DNA of 25,873 nt, taken from positions 1-25,873 of IMG/VR virus record IMGVR_UViG_3300038441_000080; one strand, 5' to 3'. A model generated the notes under the pieces. It did not search any database. It worked only from the letters and a program-made list of their open reading frames with translations, and was not told the origin of the DNA. Numbering within the stretch: the first letter of the stretch is position 1; the number at the start of each line of letters is the position of its first letter. The position numbers and the translations under genes were made by a program. This document shows, in pieces, positions 18,061 to 25,873 of the stretch. Origin of the DNA: a virus.

Positions 18061-19629
18061 CTACTTACTATACTGATCGTCTATGCTGTCCGATATCTGC
18101 TGGTCTTGTTGTTGCTGTTGTGCCTCTTCTGGGTCTACTTCCTGATCATCTGGAGGAGCACCACCGCCATTAGGGTCGTTAGGGTCTCCACCACCCATCT
18201 GTGCCATCTGATCTGCCTGTTCTTTCTGTAGCACATAGTTGGTGTAGGTAGGATCAAGTACAATATCCCCATTGTCCAGAGGTGGCATGTCCTTTTCCTT
18301 ACGAATCTCATTGATAGTCTTGAAGGAGCGTACTTGCTTATCGGTAACAGTAAGCTTTTCAGTCTCCGACTCCTTATCCAGTCCTACAAAGTTGAATGTG
18401 TAGTCGGAGCCAAAGCGCCGTATGATAAACCTGTTGATGACCGACTCTATGAACCTTAGTAAGGGTCTTAGCCCCTTATCCTTAGAGTTCTTTAGACGGT
18501 CTTCAATACCACCCTCACCTAGACCACCACCACTACCACCACTACCTCCACGGTTAGGGAAGTTAATCTCGGCTGGGTCGATCTGGTATACAGCACAGCA
18601 GATATTGATCAGGTAGTTCATCCACATTTCATATTCCATCTCACGGTTCGATTGGGATACGTTAATGTACTCCAAACCGTCAACGGATACTACCGGAGTC
18701 TTCCATGCCCCTGTCATACCTGCGATTTGAGCTGTCCATTGCCTACGGAAGGCATCCAACTGCTCCTTAGAGATATTCTGACCCTTGAGGTTCAAGATAC
18801 CCTTGGTGGTACCCCCTTGAGAGAAGTAACGTGAGTTATACTCTTCTGCCCATAGATGTGACGTCACCTGATGTATAAGAACCTCTAGCTCTGAAAATCC
18901 ATATGGCTGGATATTAATGTCCGTGCGTGGGTTACGCACAGCAAAGGCTAACTCTTTACCAGAGAACTCCGCTATAGGAGTACTGTTGTTGATCTGAACC
19001 CAGCGTATGCCATCCTTGTCCACTGTAGTAGGATGGATAAACCCATCGTCATCAGCATTATCCTGACTAGAAGCAGCACGAATAGTGGCAGCATCTACAG
19101 CATGTATCTCTGCCGGACGTCCAGCCCTATCAGGCACTATTTCAAAGGTCAACTGGTCGTATACAAGAGAATCCCGTACCACCTTACGTAGGAAGGAGTC
19201 AAAGTTATCCCTTGATGGGTCATAATCGTATCCGCAGTTCTCCAAGAAGGACTCCATAGCCATGATGATACGATTCTGATCATCCGTAGGGTTAGCCTTA
19301 GGATCACGTAGGGTAATCTCGAATCCCACCCCATCCTTAGAGTACCTAGCTGGCTGGGAGAACGTGGACACCTGATTGATCCTAGTGGTAACGATAGAAG
19401 CTATAACAGAGTTGCGATTCGACATCTTCTTTAGAGTATCGAACGTAAGAGAATATGGCTTGTCCTTATATCCCAAACTCTGCACTAGGGCAAGAGGGTC
19501 TTCTATAATGGATTTAGCTTCTTGTACACGCTCAGACTTAGAGAGGTTGTCGCTAATGTCTGCCGTGTTATGGGTAATCGAAGTGGTGCCTAATCGAAGC
19601 GACCTAAACAGATTATCCATCAGTCCCAT
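18061..19629 (-). CDS. Portal protein
   Basis: A 522-residue protein that would form the 12-subunit ring at the capsid vertex through which DNA is packaged and to which the tail attaches. It has the look of the phage portal family PF04860: an N-terminal segment with [18 protein letters not shown], then [20 protein letters not shown], a central [11 protein letters not shown], the QLDAFRRQW helix, the [17 protein letters not shown] wing segment, a Gly/Ser loop near residues 355-375 and the [12 protein letters not shown] helix. Past residue 460 the C-terminus is low-complexity, with Gly/Pro/Asp and then a poly-Gln run. The ATG is chosen because AAGGAGGTG precedes it at ideal spacing. Protease, scaffold and capsid genes follow, the normal order. 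Length is typical. Confidence 0.93.
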
Positions 19630-19673: not shown

Positions 19674-19682
19674 GTGTTGGAG

Positions 19683-19709
19683 CAAAAATAGCATACACGT
19701 AGTGTATGC
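19683..19709 (-). terminator. Rho-independent terminator before the portal gene
   Basis: On the minus strand a GCATACAC / GTGTATGC stem with a very small loop is followed by TATTTTTG. It begins about ten bases after the stop of the charged helical protein. Confidence 0.75.
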
Positions 19710-19719
19710 CACCCTCCTA

Positions 19720-20265
19720 CTATTTCGGGTTAATGATGAGCTGTTGTTCTGCCTTATTATCAGCTCTAGTCTGGTCAGACTGACCATACCTACTGTGCTT
19801 GCTATCCTTTTTCTTTTCCTTCTTATTGTCCTTATTCTGTGACTCCTTGCGCTTCTCGTCCTCTTTCTTACGATCCTTAGCGCGTTGTTTAAGCTTCAGC
19901 TTATATTCCTGCATCTGCTTATCAGTCACATGATGTACCCTACCGTGTTGGGACTCACTCTCTTCCTCAGCACGAGCCTTAACCTTCTTACGGGCACGCT
20001 TATCCTGGTTAGCCTTCTTCTCATTGTTATCAGCAATATCCCGTTTGCGTTTAGCATCCTCACGCTCTTGTTCCTCTAGGATAGTCTTTTTCTTCTCTTC
20101 CTCGTTCTTCTTAGCGTGGTCTGCAAACTCACTACGAACCCACTGCTTACGGGTGACGGTATGACCGTCACGCACGTAAGTAATAACCTGTTGAATAAGA
20201 CCATCCCGATTGTTCTTACCCTTCAGTAAGTCAGCACCCTCATCGGTGGTTACTAGCAGCAACAT
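19720..20265 (-). CDS. Highly charged helical protein with a relic of the shared FTRxQWV module
   Basis: A 181-residue protein. Residues 1-45 contain LLLVTTDEGADLLKGK and then ITYVRDGHTVTRKQWV, which resembles the QVHGK..G..FTR.QWV module of the two genes before it. Its first lines also recall the VTVTPKGREGLMKG start of the 548-residue protein. From residue 50 it is almost purely K, E, D, R, Q and N and should form one long charged helix or coiled coil, ending LIINPK. I chose ATG 20265 (GGGGGTG then 6 bases) instead of the GTG at 20274, which overlaps the previous stop as GTGA. It lies directly before a terminator and the portal. Basic, charged head proteins can bind DNA or act in scaffolding; no function can be assigned from sequence. 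Confidence 0.6.
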   Translation of the reverse strand: MLLLVTTDEGADLLKGKNNRDGLIQQVITYVRDGHTVTRKQWVRSEFADHAKKNEEEKKKTILEEQEREDAKRKRDIADNNEKKANQDKRARKKVKARAEEESESQHGRVHHVTDKQMQEYKLKLKQRAKDRKKEDEKRKESQNKDNKKEKKKDSKHSRYGQSDQTRADNKAEQQLIINPK

Positions 20266-20270
20266 ATGTC

Positions 20271-21917
20271 TCACCCCCAGTTGATAATCTCGTACTCATC
20301 TAAGGACTTCAATACGTCATCTGAGCTCTTTCCACCTTCTAAGAAGGTCTTAACTTCAGATAAGTTGATCGTATGTTCATCCCAGCTCTCCCCATCCTTA
20401 CCAGTGTCTACTACTGACAGTATAGGCTTTCCTGAGTCATCCATTTCCCTACGAACGAAGCTACTGTCCCCGAATGCCCATTCCACTCCAGGCTCTACGT
20501 TTCTAACGTCTCCCACACCCTTGAGCTGTAGGAACTGTCTCAAAACCCTAGCCATGTTCTTGTTACCAATTGTGAGCTTCATTAGGCTTTCATTATTAGC
20601 TTCTCCCTTGTGCTTATCCATAAGCTCTGGATGCTTTTCAAATATCTGACGTAGAGCGGATACTTTGTGCATATTATCCACATGGGAGTGCTCAGACTTT
20701 ATACGGTTCTTCATTATAGGGTGATCGCTGTAACCCTTAGCCACACTATGTTTTAGCTCAGGGCTCATACTGTCTAGGAAGTCCTTTACAGACTGCCTGT
20801 GCTTCTGGGAGTCATCCATACCAGCCCTCTGTTCAGCTTCATGCCCATGAGAGCTAAAGTTTTCGTCTAGGTTCAGTACATGTGGACTGGTTTCAACGAA
20901 CTTCTTAAGCTGTTGCATATTACGCATGTGCTTGATAGGGGCTACCTTGTCATTAGGATCGACCTCCAGTGGGTCAGCTTCAGCGATGCCATGTTGCTTC
21001 ATTAGGCTGTATAACTCAGCCCTGCTCATGGACTTCATAACACCCTCAATGGTGTTACCACCCTTTTCAGCTCTGGTCTGGGTGCTACTATTAGCCTTAG
21101 GTTTGGCAGACACACTAGGCTGGTGATCAGGGTCTTCCATATGGTGGGGATTGTCCTTCAGGTAGCCCTTAAACTTCATCATATTATGCATATGCTTAAT
21201 AGGATGAGCTTTGTCGTCTGGATTAGCTACCTTAGGGTCTTGATCTGCTATGCCAAACTTGGACATAAGCTGATACAATTTCTCCCTATCATTCTTAGCA
21301 AAGTTGTTAGACCACTCGTTGATACGATCCGTACCTTCCGAGTTCTTATCCTCATGGGTAGGTAGGTGCTCAGCCCCAGCCAAGTGAGGATTCTTGTACA
21401 AGTGCTGTTTAACCGCCTCAACCTTATTCTTGTGTAGAATGGCTGCATGGTCATTGTGCTTCCACTCTACCTTATGATCCATCAGATGTTTATACTTCTC
21501 GTCCGTTGACATCTGCTTCACATGTTGATCTATGAAAGCCTTCTGATTGGCGTTATGCTCAGCTACAGGCTGGCCAGTGGTGGCATCCACCCACTGCATA
21601 CGGGTAAATGTCGTACCGTTCTTACCATGCACTTGAATAGGCTTCTTAACTAACTTAGAGGTGTTAAGGTGACCCATAGACTTCCCTAAGTCAATATATA
21701 GACCCAAAGACTTGTCTACGTCCTTCTCAGGCTTCAAGGTGCGGTATTTCATATTTATAGCTCTATTCGTGTTGCGCTCATAGTCGTCTGATAGTACCTC
21801 ATGGTGGAGCCACGAATCGTCGTGTACAGTGCTGCCGTCTTCACCCTTCATAAGACCTTCTCTGCCTTTAGGGGTGACGGTTACAGTTGGTATGACCTGT
21901 ATTACTTTACCAGCCAT
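20271..21917 (-). CDS. Head-region protein with shared module and internal helical repeats
   Basis: A 548-residue polar, His- and Lys-rich protein, paralogous to the previous one over one module: residues 73-121 contain LYIDL, NTSKLVKK, QVHGKNG, FTRMQWVD and QPVAEH. Before it lies a separate N-terminal segment (VTVTPKGREGLMKG). After it come repeats of about 48 residues, clearest at 210-257 and 299-346, sharing LY.LM, GIA..DP, PIKHM.NM and a P-H near the end; weaker copies lie at about 139-180 and 387-434. The C-terminal 100 residues look like a compact alpha/beta domain (VEWAFGDSSFVRREMD). The ATG comes 3 bases after the previous stop, with GGGGGT overlapping that stop. The gene lies in the slot where many phages encode minor head or ejected proteins. 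I do not recognise a named family; a structural or co-injected role is an inference. Confidence 0.65.
   Translation of the reverse strand: MAGKVIQVIPTVTVTPKGREGLMKGEDGSTVHDDSWLHHEVLSDDYERNTNRAINMKYRTLKPEKDVDKSLGLYIDLGKSMGHLNTSKLVKKPIQVHGKNGTTFTRMQWVDATTGQPVAEHNANQKAFIDQHVKQMSTDEKYKHLMDHKVEWKHNDHAAILHKNKVEAVKQHLYKNPHLAGAEHLPTHEDKNSEGTDRINEWSNNFAKNDREKLYQLMSKFGIADQDPKVANPDDKAHPIKHMHNMMKFKGYLKDNPHHMEDPDHQPSVSAKPKANSSTQTRAEKGGNTIEGVMKSMSRAELYSLMKQHGIAEADPLEVDPNDKVAPIKHMRNMQQLKKFVETSPHVLNLDENFSSHGHEAEQRAGMDDSQKHRQSVKDFLDSMSPELKHSVAKGYSDHPIMKNRIKSEHSHVDNMHKVSALRQIFEKHPELMDKHKGEANNESLMKLTIGNKNMARVLRQFLQLKGVGDVRNVEPGVEWAFGDSSFVRREMDDSGKPILSVVDTGKDGESWDEHTINLSEVKTFLEGGKSSDDVLKSLDEYEIINWG
20880..21290 (-). 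repeat. Two coding repeats inside the 548-residue protein
   Basis: Two copies of an approximately 48-residue unit are encoded at 21147-21290 and 20880-21023. Shared positions include LY-x-LM, GIA-x-x-DP, D-K, PIKHM-x-NM and a closing P-H. They are separated by a Ser/Lys/Thr-rich linker. The copies have diverged at the DNA level, so this is an old duplication. Confidence 0.65.
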
Positions 21918-21920
21918 GTG

Positions 21921-23312
21921 TTAACCCCCTATTCTGCCAGCATGCTCCAAGCTTAAAGAGTGTATCTCTTCATGAGGATGATCACTGCTATTGAGCGTTT
22001 TAACTCCATACCATGAGTCCTTGCCTGTAAGCATAAAGGCTTTTCCTAAATGTCCATTACCGTTCACGTCCTTGAATCGGGCACCATTATTATCCTTAGT
22101 ACCCTTAAAGTCATACTTATTGCCATCATCCAGAGCGGCAAACTGCCAAGTATGCTTAATGTCATTTATGCTCTTGTACCCGCAGGATTCTAGGGTTTCT
22201 GTAAGGTCTAGTTGGTTCTTAGACACCCACCTCTTCAGTTCATCCCTAGCCCTGTCAGCCATAGACGGATGAGCGAAGTCGAAACCTTTCTTAGCCCAAG
22301 CGTACATGCCTACTGAGATATTGGCAAGCAGGTTAATATGAACCGGATTACCACTACCAAGGTGTCTCCACAAGGCTTCCGTACGATTGTACAAAGTCTC
22401 TGCCATACCCTTGCCCTGATATTTCTTCTCAAGCTCCAAGGTATGATTTTCCACATGCAAGCCATCTTCCTTACGGGTAACTACCCTTGTGACACTACCA
22501 ACTTTATTACCCTTGGCGTCTTTAAAGGAGAACCCCACATCAGCATGGACATAGCCTTTGTCATGATAGACTTGCACATCGACCATGGTAGCCTTCCAGT
22601 GCCCCTCAGGGTGACTAAACACATCCTCCAAGAACTCCACACTAGCACCCTTGAATAGATTATTGAAGACCTTATCAGCCTTAATACCCTTTCCCTTGGT
22701 CGATCCATACTTGCTATCGTTAGAGCCTCTATTAAGCTCATGCTGGGAGCTGTCAAGCTCTGTAGAGAATACATCTGACACCTTGCTTCCCTTAGTCATG
22801 TTAGAGAAGTCTATGCCAGCACCTTCACCTGAACGCTTTGCTAGCTCTTCATCAGACAGCCCATGATCAGTGTCCTTAATATGAGGTGGTGCTATGCCCT
22901 CCCTACTAGGGTGATCTGTTTCGTGGGGCGCTAAGAATTTCAGATGATCCCTTATATGACGCATAGGAATCTTGTCAACGTGTTGCATAATATGGTTTCT
23001 TAGGGCAATTGGGGACTCATGACCTTCGCCATCCAAACCTGTGGCATGTGCCATTTTGACCGCTTTGTCCTTATGATCCCTTATATAATTTCCCACAAGC
23101 TCATGCTTCTGCATAACGTCCAATCTGCCGATACGTTCCATGTGGGGGTCTTCATGATGACTACTGTGCTCTACAACAGGTTGGTTGTCACTGGGGTCTA
23201 CCCATTGCTGTCTGGTAAAGATTTTACCACCTTTACCATGAACCTGAACTGCCCTTTTTACCAGCTTGGTAGTATTCATTGTGCCCTTGGCCAGATCTAT
23301 ATAAAGATTCAT
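21921..23312 (-). CDS. Head-region protein with shared QVHGK/FTRxQWVD module and embedded GNAT acetyltransferase-like domain
   Basis: A 463-residue protein in three parts. Residues 3-49 hold a module (LYIDL, NTTKLVKR, QVHGKGG, FTRQQWVD, QPVVEH) that recurs in the next gene. Residues 50-210 are helical, polar and His-rich, with HIRDHLKFL-like stretches. Residues about 242-350 look like a GNAT fold: successive beta strands, then LELEKKYQGKGMAETLY, where QGKGMA at 299-304 fits the acetyl-CoA-binding Q/R-x-x-G-x-G/A motif, then N331, Y337 and KKGFDF, matching the usual N...Y.k.GF motif. The remaining C-terminus is polar. I chose ATG 23312, after GGGGGTG, over an in-frame GTG at 23321. It lies in the block just upstream of the portal. 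GNAT enzymes transfer acetyl groups to amines; substrate and role here are unknown. Whether it is carried in the virion is inference. Confidence 0.72.
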   Translation of the reverse strand: MNLYIDLAKGTMNTTKLVKRAVQVHGKGGKIFTRQQWVDPSDNQPVVEHSSHHEDPHMERIGRLDVMQKHELVGNYIRDHKDKAVKMAHATGLDGEGHESPIALRNHIMQHVDKIPMRHIRDHLKFLAPHETDHPSREGIAPPHIKDTDHGLSDEELAKRSGEGAGIDFSNMTKGSKVSDVFSTELDSSQHELNRGSNDSKYGSTKGKGIKADKVFNNLFKGASVEFLEDVFSHPEGHWKATMVDVQVYHDKGYVHADVGFSFKDAKGNKVGSVTRVVTRKEDGLHVENHTLELEKKYQGKGMAETLYNRTEALWRHLGSGNPVHINLLANISVGMYAWAKKGFDFAHPSMADRARDELKRWVSKNQLDLTETLESCGYKSINDIKHTWQFAALDDGNKYDFKGTKDNNGARFKDVNGNGHLGKAFMLTGKDSWYGVKTLNSSDHPHEEIHSLSLEHAGRIGG

Positions 23313-23340
23313 GTAATTCACCCCCTAGCGGAATGCTCTG

Positions 23341-23377
23341 TAAAAATAAAATAAGCCATGGATTGCTCCATGGCTTA
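23341..23377 (-). terminator. Rho-independent terminator
   Basis: On the minus strand an 11-bp perfect stem (TAAGCCATGGA / TCCATGGCTTA, 4-base loop GCAA) is followed by TTTTATTTTTA. It separates the small-gene group from the three-gene family upstream of the portal. Only about 28 bases remain before the next start codon. Confidence 0.88.
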
Positions 23378-23393
23378 CAGCACGTTCCTCATA

Positions 23394-23811: not shown

Positions 23812-23997
23812 TCACACCTCGATTCCGAATACTGTAGCGTACCCAAGAAGAGTGATAAAATATACCATACCGATCTTCTTGAGGTCTAAAGTATAATTAT
23901 CTTTGGCTACTAGAGACAACACCATATTGACGATGAGGACAATTGTGCCTGGTATAGCTACCCCTAGTCCTAGAATCATCCAGAATATACTAGTCAT
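23812..23997 (-). CDS. Small membrane protein, two predicted transmembrane segments
   Basis: A 61-residue protein of unknown function. Residues 3-31 (FWMILGLGVAIPGTIVLIVN and onward) and residues 43-58 (GMVYFITLLGYATVFG) are strongly hydrophobic and are joined by a short charged stretch containing KDNYTLDLKK. This predicts a two-pass membrane hairpin. It starts in a 4-base ATGA overlap with the stop of the nuclease-like gene, so the two are probably translationally coupled. Small two-helix proteins in phages can be holins, superinfection-exclusion proteins or unrelated membrane proteins. No endolysin lies beside it, so a holin role is not supported by context. Confidence 0.6.
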   Translation of the reverse strand: MTSIFWMILGLGVAIPGTIVLIVNMVLSLVAKDNYTLDLKKIGMVYFITLLGYATVFGIEV

Positions 23998-24656
23998 TTC
24001 TTCACCACCTTACATCTGAAGTGTAGCCTTCTCTTCCTAACTGAATGTTCACACCAGCCGTGTTCCCATTCCTTAAGGGACTTAGCCAGCGATGACCGCA
24101 CGTTCCCAGTGTAGTGAGTCTTGCAGGCTGCTATGATGTCATCTATTGAGACCCACTGTGATCCTTTAGACTCCAAGAACTTTTGAACCATCATTATAGT
24201 TGCTTTGTAACCTGTAAGGTAACCACCGCCATAGTGTCCACCCTGAATGTCTATCTCCTCATGTAGAGGAGTAATAGACTTGGATATATCATACTTATCG
24301 TTTACTAGGTGAGACTTGGACTGTATATGTTCGATACACCCATCAGGATGCACTGTGATTAGTCCTAAGCCAACCTTAAGCAATAAGTCATTTATGTCCT
24401 CTGGTATGGGTCTGGTTCGCTTTGGGCTAGCCAAGTATATGAGATTGGCTGATCCTCTTGACCTCCACCTAAGTCCTTGATCTATCAAGTCCCTAGAAAG
24501 AGAAGTCTTTAGCTCAACTATGATTGATGAGCCTTCCTTGATACCCACTACATCAGCTCTGGTACCACGAAGCTCTATCTCAGGGAATACCTTATAACCC
24601 TTGGCTTCAAGCCACTTCTTCACGGGCTCATATAGGTCAGTCTCCTTCACGTCCAT
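23994..24656 (-). CDS. DUF2161-like PD-(D/E)XK nuclease candidate
   Basis: A 220-residue protein. Residues 5-75 match the pattern I know for DUF2161, putative PD-(D/E)XK phosphodiesterases: ETDLYEPVK near the start, then GYKVFPE, RADVVGI, SIIVELK and a YLASP segment. The likely catalytic residues are D35 and the E48-x-K50 pair. The C-terminal 80 residues are basic and helical with a KRRLHFRCK end, and could bind DNA; I do not recognise them. The start is uncertain. AAGGAG sits only 3 bases before ATG 24656 (after an in-frame TTG), but 9 bases before a GTG at 24650, which may be the true start. The last base of the stop region overlaps the next gene as ATGA. Nuclease activity is inferred from the motif only; target and role are unknown. 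Confidence 0.6.
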   Translation of the reverse strand: MDVKETDLYEPVKKWLEAKGYKVFPEIELRGTRADVVGIKEGSSIIVELKTSLSRDLIDQGLRWRSRGSANLIYLASPKRTRPIPEDINDLLLKVGLGLITVHPDGCIEHIQSKSHLVNDKYDISKSITPLHEEIDIQGGHYGGGYLTGYKATIMMVQKFLESKGSQWVSIDDIIAACKTHYTGNVRSSLAKSLKEWEHGWCEHSVRKRRLHFRCKVVKK

Positions 24657-24663
24657 CAACTCC

Positions 24664-24706: not shown

Positions 24707-25747
24707 TTATAGGTCGTCTAGGTCGTTGTCACCGTCAACCTTCTTGTAGTTCCTAGATTTCTGCTCAAACGTATCTGTCTTGGTATTTTGGTCGGAGTTG
24801 TCATCGAAGGCTATCATCCATGTCATAGCGTTATCTATGCCCTCATAGTGGTCTTCCAGTCCAAGACCACGCAGTCTACGGTTACAGAGCTTCTTGATAT
24901 ACCCTTCAAGGTCATCAAGGTCGATACCATCAACTCCATGAAGAGCGTATCGTGACCACTCGATTTCCAGTTCCGTAGCTTCGATAAGCATATCGTAAAT
25001 GAACTGAACGTTAGCTTCTGTATTCAGTTCTGGCATTTCAGCCAACAGGAACCGTACCATCTGACTGAATACATAGGCGTGTTGTACTTCATCACGATGG
25101 ATGTACCCAATCATTGTAGACGATCCAAGCATCATCTGATTACGTGCAAAGTTGTAGAACAAAGTGAACGCTGTATAAAAATTCACACCCTCAAGCACAA
25201 CTGTGCCTATCAAAGCCTCAAAGAAGTTCTGTGGTGTAGGATCATTGATGAATTTATCATAAAGCTGCTCCACCCTAGCATTACGCTTCTGCACCATAGG
25301 ATCATGTTTAGCATCGTGGAATACCTTGTTCTGTACGTCAAGTGGAACTAAAGAGGACAGGACATAGGAATAGGACTCGTTATGGATGGCTTCCTGAGCA
25401 GCTATTTGAGCAGCAATAGGGGCATAAGTAGGTTCGGATACATACAGTGCGAATGCAAGTACAGCCCTAGTCTGTTTAGAGTCCAGGGTAGCTAACTGGC
25501 CAATAGAGGTCAGGAACGCTTCTTTCTCTCTATCCTTCAATAAGGGAAACTGCTTTGCATCGTTGGTCATGGAGATTCGCTGAGGAATCCAGAAGTTCGA
25601 TACAATGTTCTTATAAGACGTGTACATTTGCGGGTATCGGATGTCGTTCCAGTTCACTAGCCCAGACATTTCACCCCCGATAACAGCAGTACCCCTATCG
25701 GGGTACCGTGCTACCATGAGCTTAACTTTTGGTAATGGTTTACTCAT
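24707..25747 (-). CDS. nrdB: Ribonucleotide reductase class I small subunit (R2)
   Basis: A 346-residue beta subunit that generates and stores the radical used by the alpha subunit. The expected dimetal ligands of class I R2 are all visible: D89 (LATLDS), E119 and H122 (QEAIHNES), E186 (LEGVNF), E220 and H223 (RDEVQHAY). A tyrosine (Y126) sits four residues after H122, where the family's radical tyrosine lies. The length fits the family (roughly 320-375). The acidic C-terminus ending in NDLDDL would be the peptide that docks into the large subunit. I chose the ATG at 25747, not the in-frame ATG at 25780, because AAGGAGGATATC lies directly before it; the upstream ATG lies inside nrdA. The gene is co-transcribed with nrdA and followed by a terminator. 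It looks intact and should be active. Confidence 0.95.
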   Translation of the reverse strand: MSKPLPKVKLMVARYPDRGTAVIGGEMSGLVNWNDIRYPQMYTSYKNIVSNFWIPQRISMTNDAKQFPLLKDREKEAFLTSIGQLATLDSKQTRAVLAFALYVSEPTYAPIAAQIAAQEAIHNESYSYVLSSLVPLDVQNKVFHDAKHDPMVQKRNARVEQLYDKFINDPTPQNFFEALIGTVVLEGVNFYTAFTLFYNFARNQMMLGSSTMIGYIHRDEVQHAYVFSQMVRFLLAEMPELNTEANVQFIYDMLIEATELEIEWSRYALHGVDGIDLDDLEGYIKKLCNRRLRGLGLEDHYEGIDNAMTWMIAFDDNSDQNTKTDTFEQKSRNYKKVDGDNDLDDL

Positions 25748-25757
25748 GATATCCTCC

Positions 25758-25873
25758 TTATTGGCATGCTTCGCAGTCATCTACCAGATTGGCAGTACCA
25801 CGGACATAGTAAGTGGTTTTCAGCTTATTTCTCCAAGCCTTACGGTGCAACTGCATCAAGTCCTTAGCCTTGA
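25758..25873 (-). CDS. nrdA: Ribonucleotide reductase large subunit, C-terminal end only
   Basis: Partial gene: only the last 37 or so codons are inside the window, and the 5' part lies beyond position 25873. The frame ends in TTYYVRGTANLVDDCEACQ and then TAA. A C-terminal C-x-x-C pair (CEAC) preceded by a TYY.RG-type segment is the hallmark of the class I ribonucleoside-diphosphate reductase alpha subunit. In that family the flexible tail cysteines re-reduce the active-site disulfide after each turnover. The next gene downstream is a clear beta subunit, starting 10 bases after this stop, which supports the call. The protein would convert ribonucleotides to deoxyribonucleotides in the cytoplasm to feed phage DNA replication. 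What is seen is the tail motif and the context; the catalytic barrel is not visible here. Confidence 0.88.
   Translation of the reverse strand, partial: KAKDLMQLHRKAWRNKLKTTYYVRGTANLVDDCEACQ

Follow-up and report, generated by a model that had tools for sequence, protein, structure and literature searches.

Does a gene in the head cluster of a large phage encode an acetyltransferase, and might such an enzyme be carried in the virion and act in the infected host? The question is raised by a 25,873-nucleotide virus sequence (IMG/VR record IMGVR_UViG_3300038441_000080, positions 1 to 25,873; this whole stretch is referred to as the window), for which an initial annotation, made from the letters alone, proposed a GNAT acetyltransferase-like domain in a protein made with the head genes. 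The proposal of a GNAT fold in a head-cluster protein was borne out by predicted models, matches in the PDB, and gene context. Positions of the features discussed are given in Table 1.

Results

Phage and gene order

The window derives from a Herelleviridae-like phage of the large SPO1 type, with relatives among Bacillus and Exiguobacterium phages; the nearest annotated record in protein searches was Exiguobacterium phage vB_EalM-132 (Herelleviridae, Spounavirinae). The order of transcription on the minus strand is RNR small subunit (24707-25780), small genes, GNAT gene, 548-aa gene, 184-aa gene, portal, prohead protease, scaffold, major capsid protein, and tail genes. The order in vB_EalM-132 matches (RNR, small genes, GNAT protein, 1098-aa protein, two more genes, portal, protease), and in both the GNAT gene sits between RNR and the portal, protease, scaffold, and major capsid protein genes. 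It thus shows a trait of polyvalent proteins, that of being encoded with virion and packaging genes. A terminator-like hairpin ahead of the gene suggests a separate transcription unit. A further hairpin was seen by eye between the 184-aa gene and the portal gene (window ~19675-19715; GCATACAC-TAC-GTGTATGC, then TATTTTT), and vB_EalM-132 has an annotated terminator at the equivalent spot. Near RNR, positions 23994-24659 encode a protein of 221 aa, residues 13-61 of which show a weak MmcB-like match (E 0.014); it carries GTRADVV...IIVELKT, which resembles a nuclease-fold motif.

As judged from the sequence, the ATG at 23312 is a likelier start of the GNAT gene than the GTG at 23321, because AGGGGG, resembling a Shine-Dalgarno sequence, closely precedes it and homologues have their first residue at the same point. 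The protein is composed of an N-terminal module, a helical linker, the GNAT domain, and a conserved C-terminal extension; it matches phrog_25452 (E 1e-97) and has an orthologue in vB_EalM-132 (36% over 95%).

Table 1 Features of the GNAT gene and its neighbours in the window. Residue numbers follow the 466-aa numbering where indicated; PDB, Pfam (PF), and PHROG (phrog) matches are given with E-values.
Feature	Position	Strand	Description
GNAT gene CDS	21921..23312	-	463 aa from ATG; 466 aa from GTG at 23321
N-terminal ~50-aa module KLVKRAVQVHGKGGKIFTRQQWVDP	23166..23312	-	HMM matches in other head-cluster proteins, mostly E 1e-20 or better
Predicted GNAT fold core	22275..22598	-	Residues 242-349 (466 numbering); domain model; top 50 PDB matches
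QGKGMA, putative acetyl-CoA pyrophosphate-loop motif	22401..22418	-	Residues 302-307 (466 numbering); aligned with RimI YQRQGLG (hhalign)
ANISVGMYAWAKKGFDF, near-invariant signature, beta5-alpha4-beta6	22275..22325	-	Alignments A3 and A5
C-terminal extension, H-x-GKAFM...W motif	21990..22274	-	Invariant in 13 homologues (alignment A5); modelled at high confidence
Next gene, 548 aa, with module (~21555-21701)	20271..21917	-	phrog_23829 E 8e-93 over its first half
Third gene, 184-aa Lys/Glu-rich protein	19720..20274	-	Degenerate module copy DGHTVTRKQWV
Portal protein	18061..19629	-	PF04860 E 9e-27; directly downstream of the three module genes
Terminator-like hairpin ahead of GNAT gene	23351..23378	-	Not enriched vs shuffles; counterpart terminator annotated in vB_EalM-132

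Predicted fold

According to the models, residues 242-350 of the 463-aa protein almost certainly adopt a GNAT fold. These residues correspond exactly to 22263-22589, the span first proposed, and the residue positions named with it (QGKGMA 299-304, N331, Y337, KKGFDF) are likewise exact in 463-aa numbering. The full-length model (AlphaFold2, 11 sequences) was of moderate quality (pLDDT 67.7), with GNAT folds in 50/50 of its best PDB matches; the domain-only model (AlphaFold2, residues 210-447, 13 sequences) reached pLDDT 88.3 and pTM 0.80. Its best 50 PDB matches were all GNAT acetyltransferases or related acetyl-CoA-binding domains: nourseothricin and streptothricin acetyltransferases, SpeG, YhbS, Naa50/Naa60/NatA, Rtt109, and isocitrate lyase ICL2, the C-terminal domain of which we take to be GNAT-like. 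The best E-value was 6e-5, and TM-scores of ~0.4 (mostly 0.36-0.46 of target) denote a match of the core only. Matches of the predicted structure, the check that had been advised for this domain, include the CoA complexes 7ypu, 4rs2, and 5hh0. The beta strands read from the sequence recur in the domain model, as four long beta strands, a helix, a strand, a short helix, and a strand, in the GNAT order beta2-4, alpha3, beta5, alpha4, beta6.

No GNAT model was found at E<1 in a Pfam search with the full sequence, and the isolated window domain scored E 0.16 against PF00583 (12.7 bits, under the curated cut-off of 20.7). PF00583 was the model most often matched among 13 homologues (4/13, best E 0.0026, all under the curated cut-off), with E-values in relatives of 0.006 (L072), 0.014 (Microbacterium phage Jera gp5), 0.016 (Aeromonas phage 65), and 0.085 (vB_EalM-132). 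Such sub-cut-off scores reflect a limit of sensitivity, a match above the cut-off not being a defining trait of the GNAT fold. In profile-profile comparison (hhalign) with E. coli RimI and SpeG, LELEKKYQGKGMA fell in register with RimI motif A (P 3e-4, probability 38%). Direct sequence search of solved structures gave no significant match, arylalkylamine NATs aligning at motif A only (E 1.1); a scan of genome contigs with the domain alignment gave 39 pattern matches, none of them confirmed.

CoA loop and catalytic position

In the domain model QGKGMA is placed after beta4, between strand 287-297 and helix 304-322, and has the Q/R-x-x-G-x-G/A form of motif A. The pattern [QR]xxGx[GA] was found in 36% of shuffles of the GNAT protein; followed in order by N...Y...GF it was found in 0.1%, a figure that is optimistic, the pattern having been set after the sequence was viewed. 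Since the motif alone is not significant, the GNAT assignment rests on fold and homologues, which rule out a chance motif as the explanation. Close homologues keep the CoA loop in recognisable form with single-position drift (QGKGMA, QGKGIA, QGKSLA, HGKGVA, HGKGHA, TGSGMG, QNIGIA, QDKGIA, QGTNVA), as the initial annotation had required of them; in HGKGVA sequences a simple pattern match shifts the register to QYHGKG, and alignments were taken as reference. The most constant parts of the alignments are ANI(S/T)(V/I)GxYAW(A/S)..KGFD and HxGKAFM; R279, N292, Y311, and R313 (466 numbering) are likewise invariant in alignment A5.

N331, Y337, and KKGFDF had been described as having the order and spacing of a GNAT fold; the order stands, and the spacing is non-canonical compared with RimI (N108...Y115...GF), with six residues from N to Tyr (seven in RimI) and six from Tyr to GF (four in RimI). 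Because of this difference the place of the RimI Tyr falls on a Trp: counted back from GF, the Y115 position is an invariant Trp (W339 in 463, W342 in 466 numbering), and the invariant Tyr stands two residues before it. One paralogue group has an extra two-residue insertion in the Tyr-to-GF region, and no general base was identified. On these grounds we regard the modelled domain as a probable, not a certain, active acyltransferase; some family members may have weak or no activity, given the Trp and the drift of the loop (QGKSLA, TGSGMG, QGTNVA).

The same observations could instead mean that the GNAT fold has degenerated and serves a minor head protein as a binding or structural part, transferring no acetyl group. 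The Trp at the usual Tyr position and the motif drift in several homologues are consistent with this, as is the concentration of conservation in ANIxxGxYAW..KGFD and HxGKAFM and not in the CoA loop. The Tyr is, however, absent from many active GNATs, and the loop Q/H/T-x-x-G/S/N-x-A/G is kept in all aligned members with no obvious structural need. We hold this reading to be rather unlikely.

A module shared by neighbouring genes

A profile was built from residues 4-52 of the GNAT protein. In profile searches the following gene of the window carried this module too (E 6e-24). HEFAH-bearing proteins of ~1030-1107 aa also have it, as do ParB-like/DUF3626 proteins and a second GNAT protein; in all it is present in 84 distinct ORFs of the loci analysed (GNAT, HEFAH, ParB/DUF3626, and basic-protein genes). 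Those instances among the 84 whose neighbours were inspected lie by the portal or directly after the terminase large subunit. Contigs found with a DNA-pattern search for the module were mostly relatives of the window phage. In the window, three consecutive genes before the portal share the N-terminal module, the third in degenerate form (23166-23312, 21555-21701, ~20125-20229).

As a short form, the 548-aa protein belongs to a family of 1029-1107 aa. HEFAH occurs in some of the long members, and the 1089-aa members of the JL/Shanette type are without HE[FL]AH. A frameshift is an unlikely cause of the short length, the same short form (570 aa) being carried by L008 and L022. Orthologues of the 184-aa protein matched a module profile built without them at E 0.003-0.007; a later profile included one such orthologue, and the lower E-values of that group are therefore partly by construction.

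The shared module is a candidate head-docking or packaging signal. The logic would be comparable to that of the T4 capsid-targeting sequence, to which the module is unrelated in sequence; nor is the module exclusively N-terminal. Profile search detected no module in GNAT relatives fused to MuF, and head association as such therefore does not depend on it.

Relatives of the GNAT domain

Bacillus phage JL S5MSI3 ('PE-PGRS family protein', 437 aa) and vB_EalM-132 gene 60 are of similar length to the window protein (36-38% identity), the latter in the same gene order; a Bacillus phage CP-51 homologue (539 aa, 25%) matches by predicted fold. The records of all three are without acetyltransferase annotation. 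A second GNAT paralogue occurs in Bacillus JL/Shanette-type phages directly after the terminase large subunit (L058 3933-5843; L055-L067; profile-checked in L058), and in L071 (1110-3338) ParB-like, module, and GNAT parts form one 743-aa protein, also directly after the terminase large subunit.

Fusion to a head protein had been considered unusual for a phage GNAT. This view was not upheld: the same domain is fused to MuF or minor head proteins in unrelated phages, and polyvalent GNATs were described in 2017 (PMC5512222). Homologous GNAT domains lie N-terminal to MuF/head-morphogenesis domains in Pseudomonas phages AIIMS-Plu-RaNi and Lucjan (both of which share YAW..KGF with the window GNAT) and Alteromonas phage R7M, at the C-terminus of a Phage_min_cap2 protein in Jera gp5, and within PHROG 4611 minor head proteins; these differ from the window protein in the position of the domain, N- or C-terminal to MuF, and in the absence of a detectable N-terminal module. 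The upstream half of L072 aligns with the final part of a long THSA-485A record named 'portal protein'; a portal fusion is not claimed, as Pfam and PHROG searches gave no head domain in that half. Aeromonas phage 65 has a free-standing 189-aa relative (L074 3293-3862, phrog_18050) outside the head cluster, a few genes from alc and rIIB.

Co-location with head genes and fusion to structural MuF, minor capsid, and minor head proteins would also fit an enzyme that works late in the producing cell and whose substrates are phage proteins (capsid, scaffold, or neighbouring cargo) at the time of head assembly, with no need for ejection. We consider this improbable, since the neighbours that carry this module recall, by their zincin motif and ParB parts, polyvalent domains directed at the host, and since the Aeromonas phage 65 relative lies away from head genes.

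Discussion

Our best reading, held at somewhat less than even confidence, is that the GNAT protein is a virion-packaged and ejected protein acetyltransferase. It is favoured because of the fold, the sub-cut-off PF00583 and hhalign results, the head-gene context, the shared module, the head-protein fusions, and the polyvalent precedent. Association with the virion is quite probable; a role as an ejected effector acting on a host protein is more tentative. From predicted fold, homologues, shared module, and gene context, we infer docking, packaging, ejection, catalysis, and substrate as follows. The protein would belong to the internal (cargo) proteins of the head in a lytic, Herelleviridae-like phage. 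Docking to the prohead would be the task of the N-terminal module, in this protein as in its neighbours; the middle would serve as linker, and the C-terminal half consists of the GNAT domain and a family-specific extension. Packaged with the DNA, the protein would be ejected into the host at infection, where it would bind acetyl-CoA of the host and modify a host protein by acetylating its amino groups in the early phase of infection, forming part of a polyvalent-type effector set from the same cluster.

We think an ejected protein acetyltransferase the likeliest role, followed by a non-catalytic binding domain and then by a late enzyme in the producing cell. Acetylation of a small molecule or nucleic acid (e.g., polyamines packaged along with the DNA, or a defence signal) is very unlikely, SpeG spermidine and streptothricin acetyltransferases being among the top structural matches but the protein acetyltransferases Naa50/Naa60/NatA being in the top 50 as well, and the ranking not predicting substrate.

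GNAT families and MPTases have been described in virion-packaged polyvalent proteins [Iyer et al. 2017, PMC5512222]; the phage GNATs in that study were from gammaproteobacterial phages, usually beside an ART domain, or solo in some mycobacteriophages, and phage-type MPTases had an aspartate three residues after HEXXH. The HEFAHAVD of the vB_EalM-132 neighbour protein has this aspartate. The window protein resembles polyvalent proteins (PMC5512222) in having a GNAT in a multidomain, head-cluster protein of a kind thought to be packaged and delivered, with zincin-motif and ParB neighbours; it differs in its occurrence in SPO1-type phages, behind a shared N-terminal module. Polyvalent proteins have several effector domains per polypeptide; the window protein has module and GNAT only, and its relative L071 has ParB, module, and GNAT. 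T4 Alt and the T4 internal proteins, which are packaged in the head and ejected, are alike in the proposed delivery logic; Alt is an ADP-ribosyltransferase. The theme of a GNAT in a packaged protein is thus known for phages, and as far as we found this protein family has not been described; fusion of GNAT and head protein is not exceptional, and the feature is ordinary in kind and new in detail.

More speculatively, SPO1-type phages may run a dedicated cargo system, in which the ~50-aa module LVKRxVQVxGKxGxxFxRMQWVxP would load about five proteins per phage into the head for ejection (two GNATs, a zincin-type protein, a ParB/DUF3626 protein, and a basic protein).

An unannotated protein family of SPO1-type phages thereby becomes a testable candidate for an ejected acetyltransferase. 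Of the new leads, the shared module, which may be a packaging tag, is the most useful. If the tag works, the cargo proteins of this phage group would be predictable from sequence, which would give a handle on what these phages deliver with their DNA into Gram-positive hosts.
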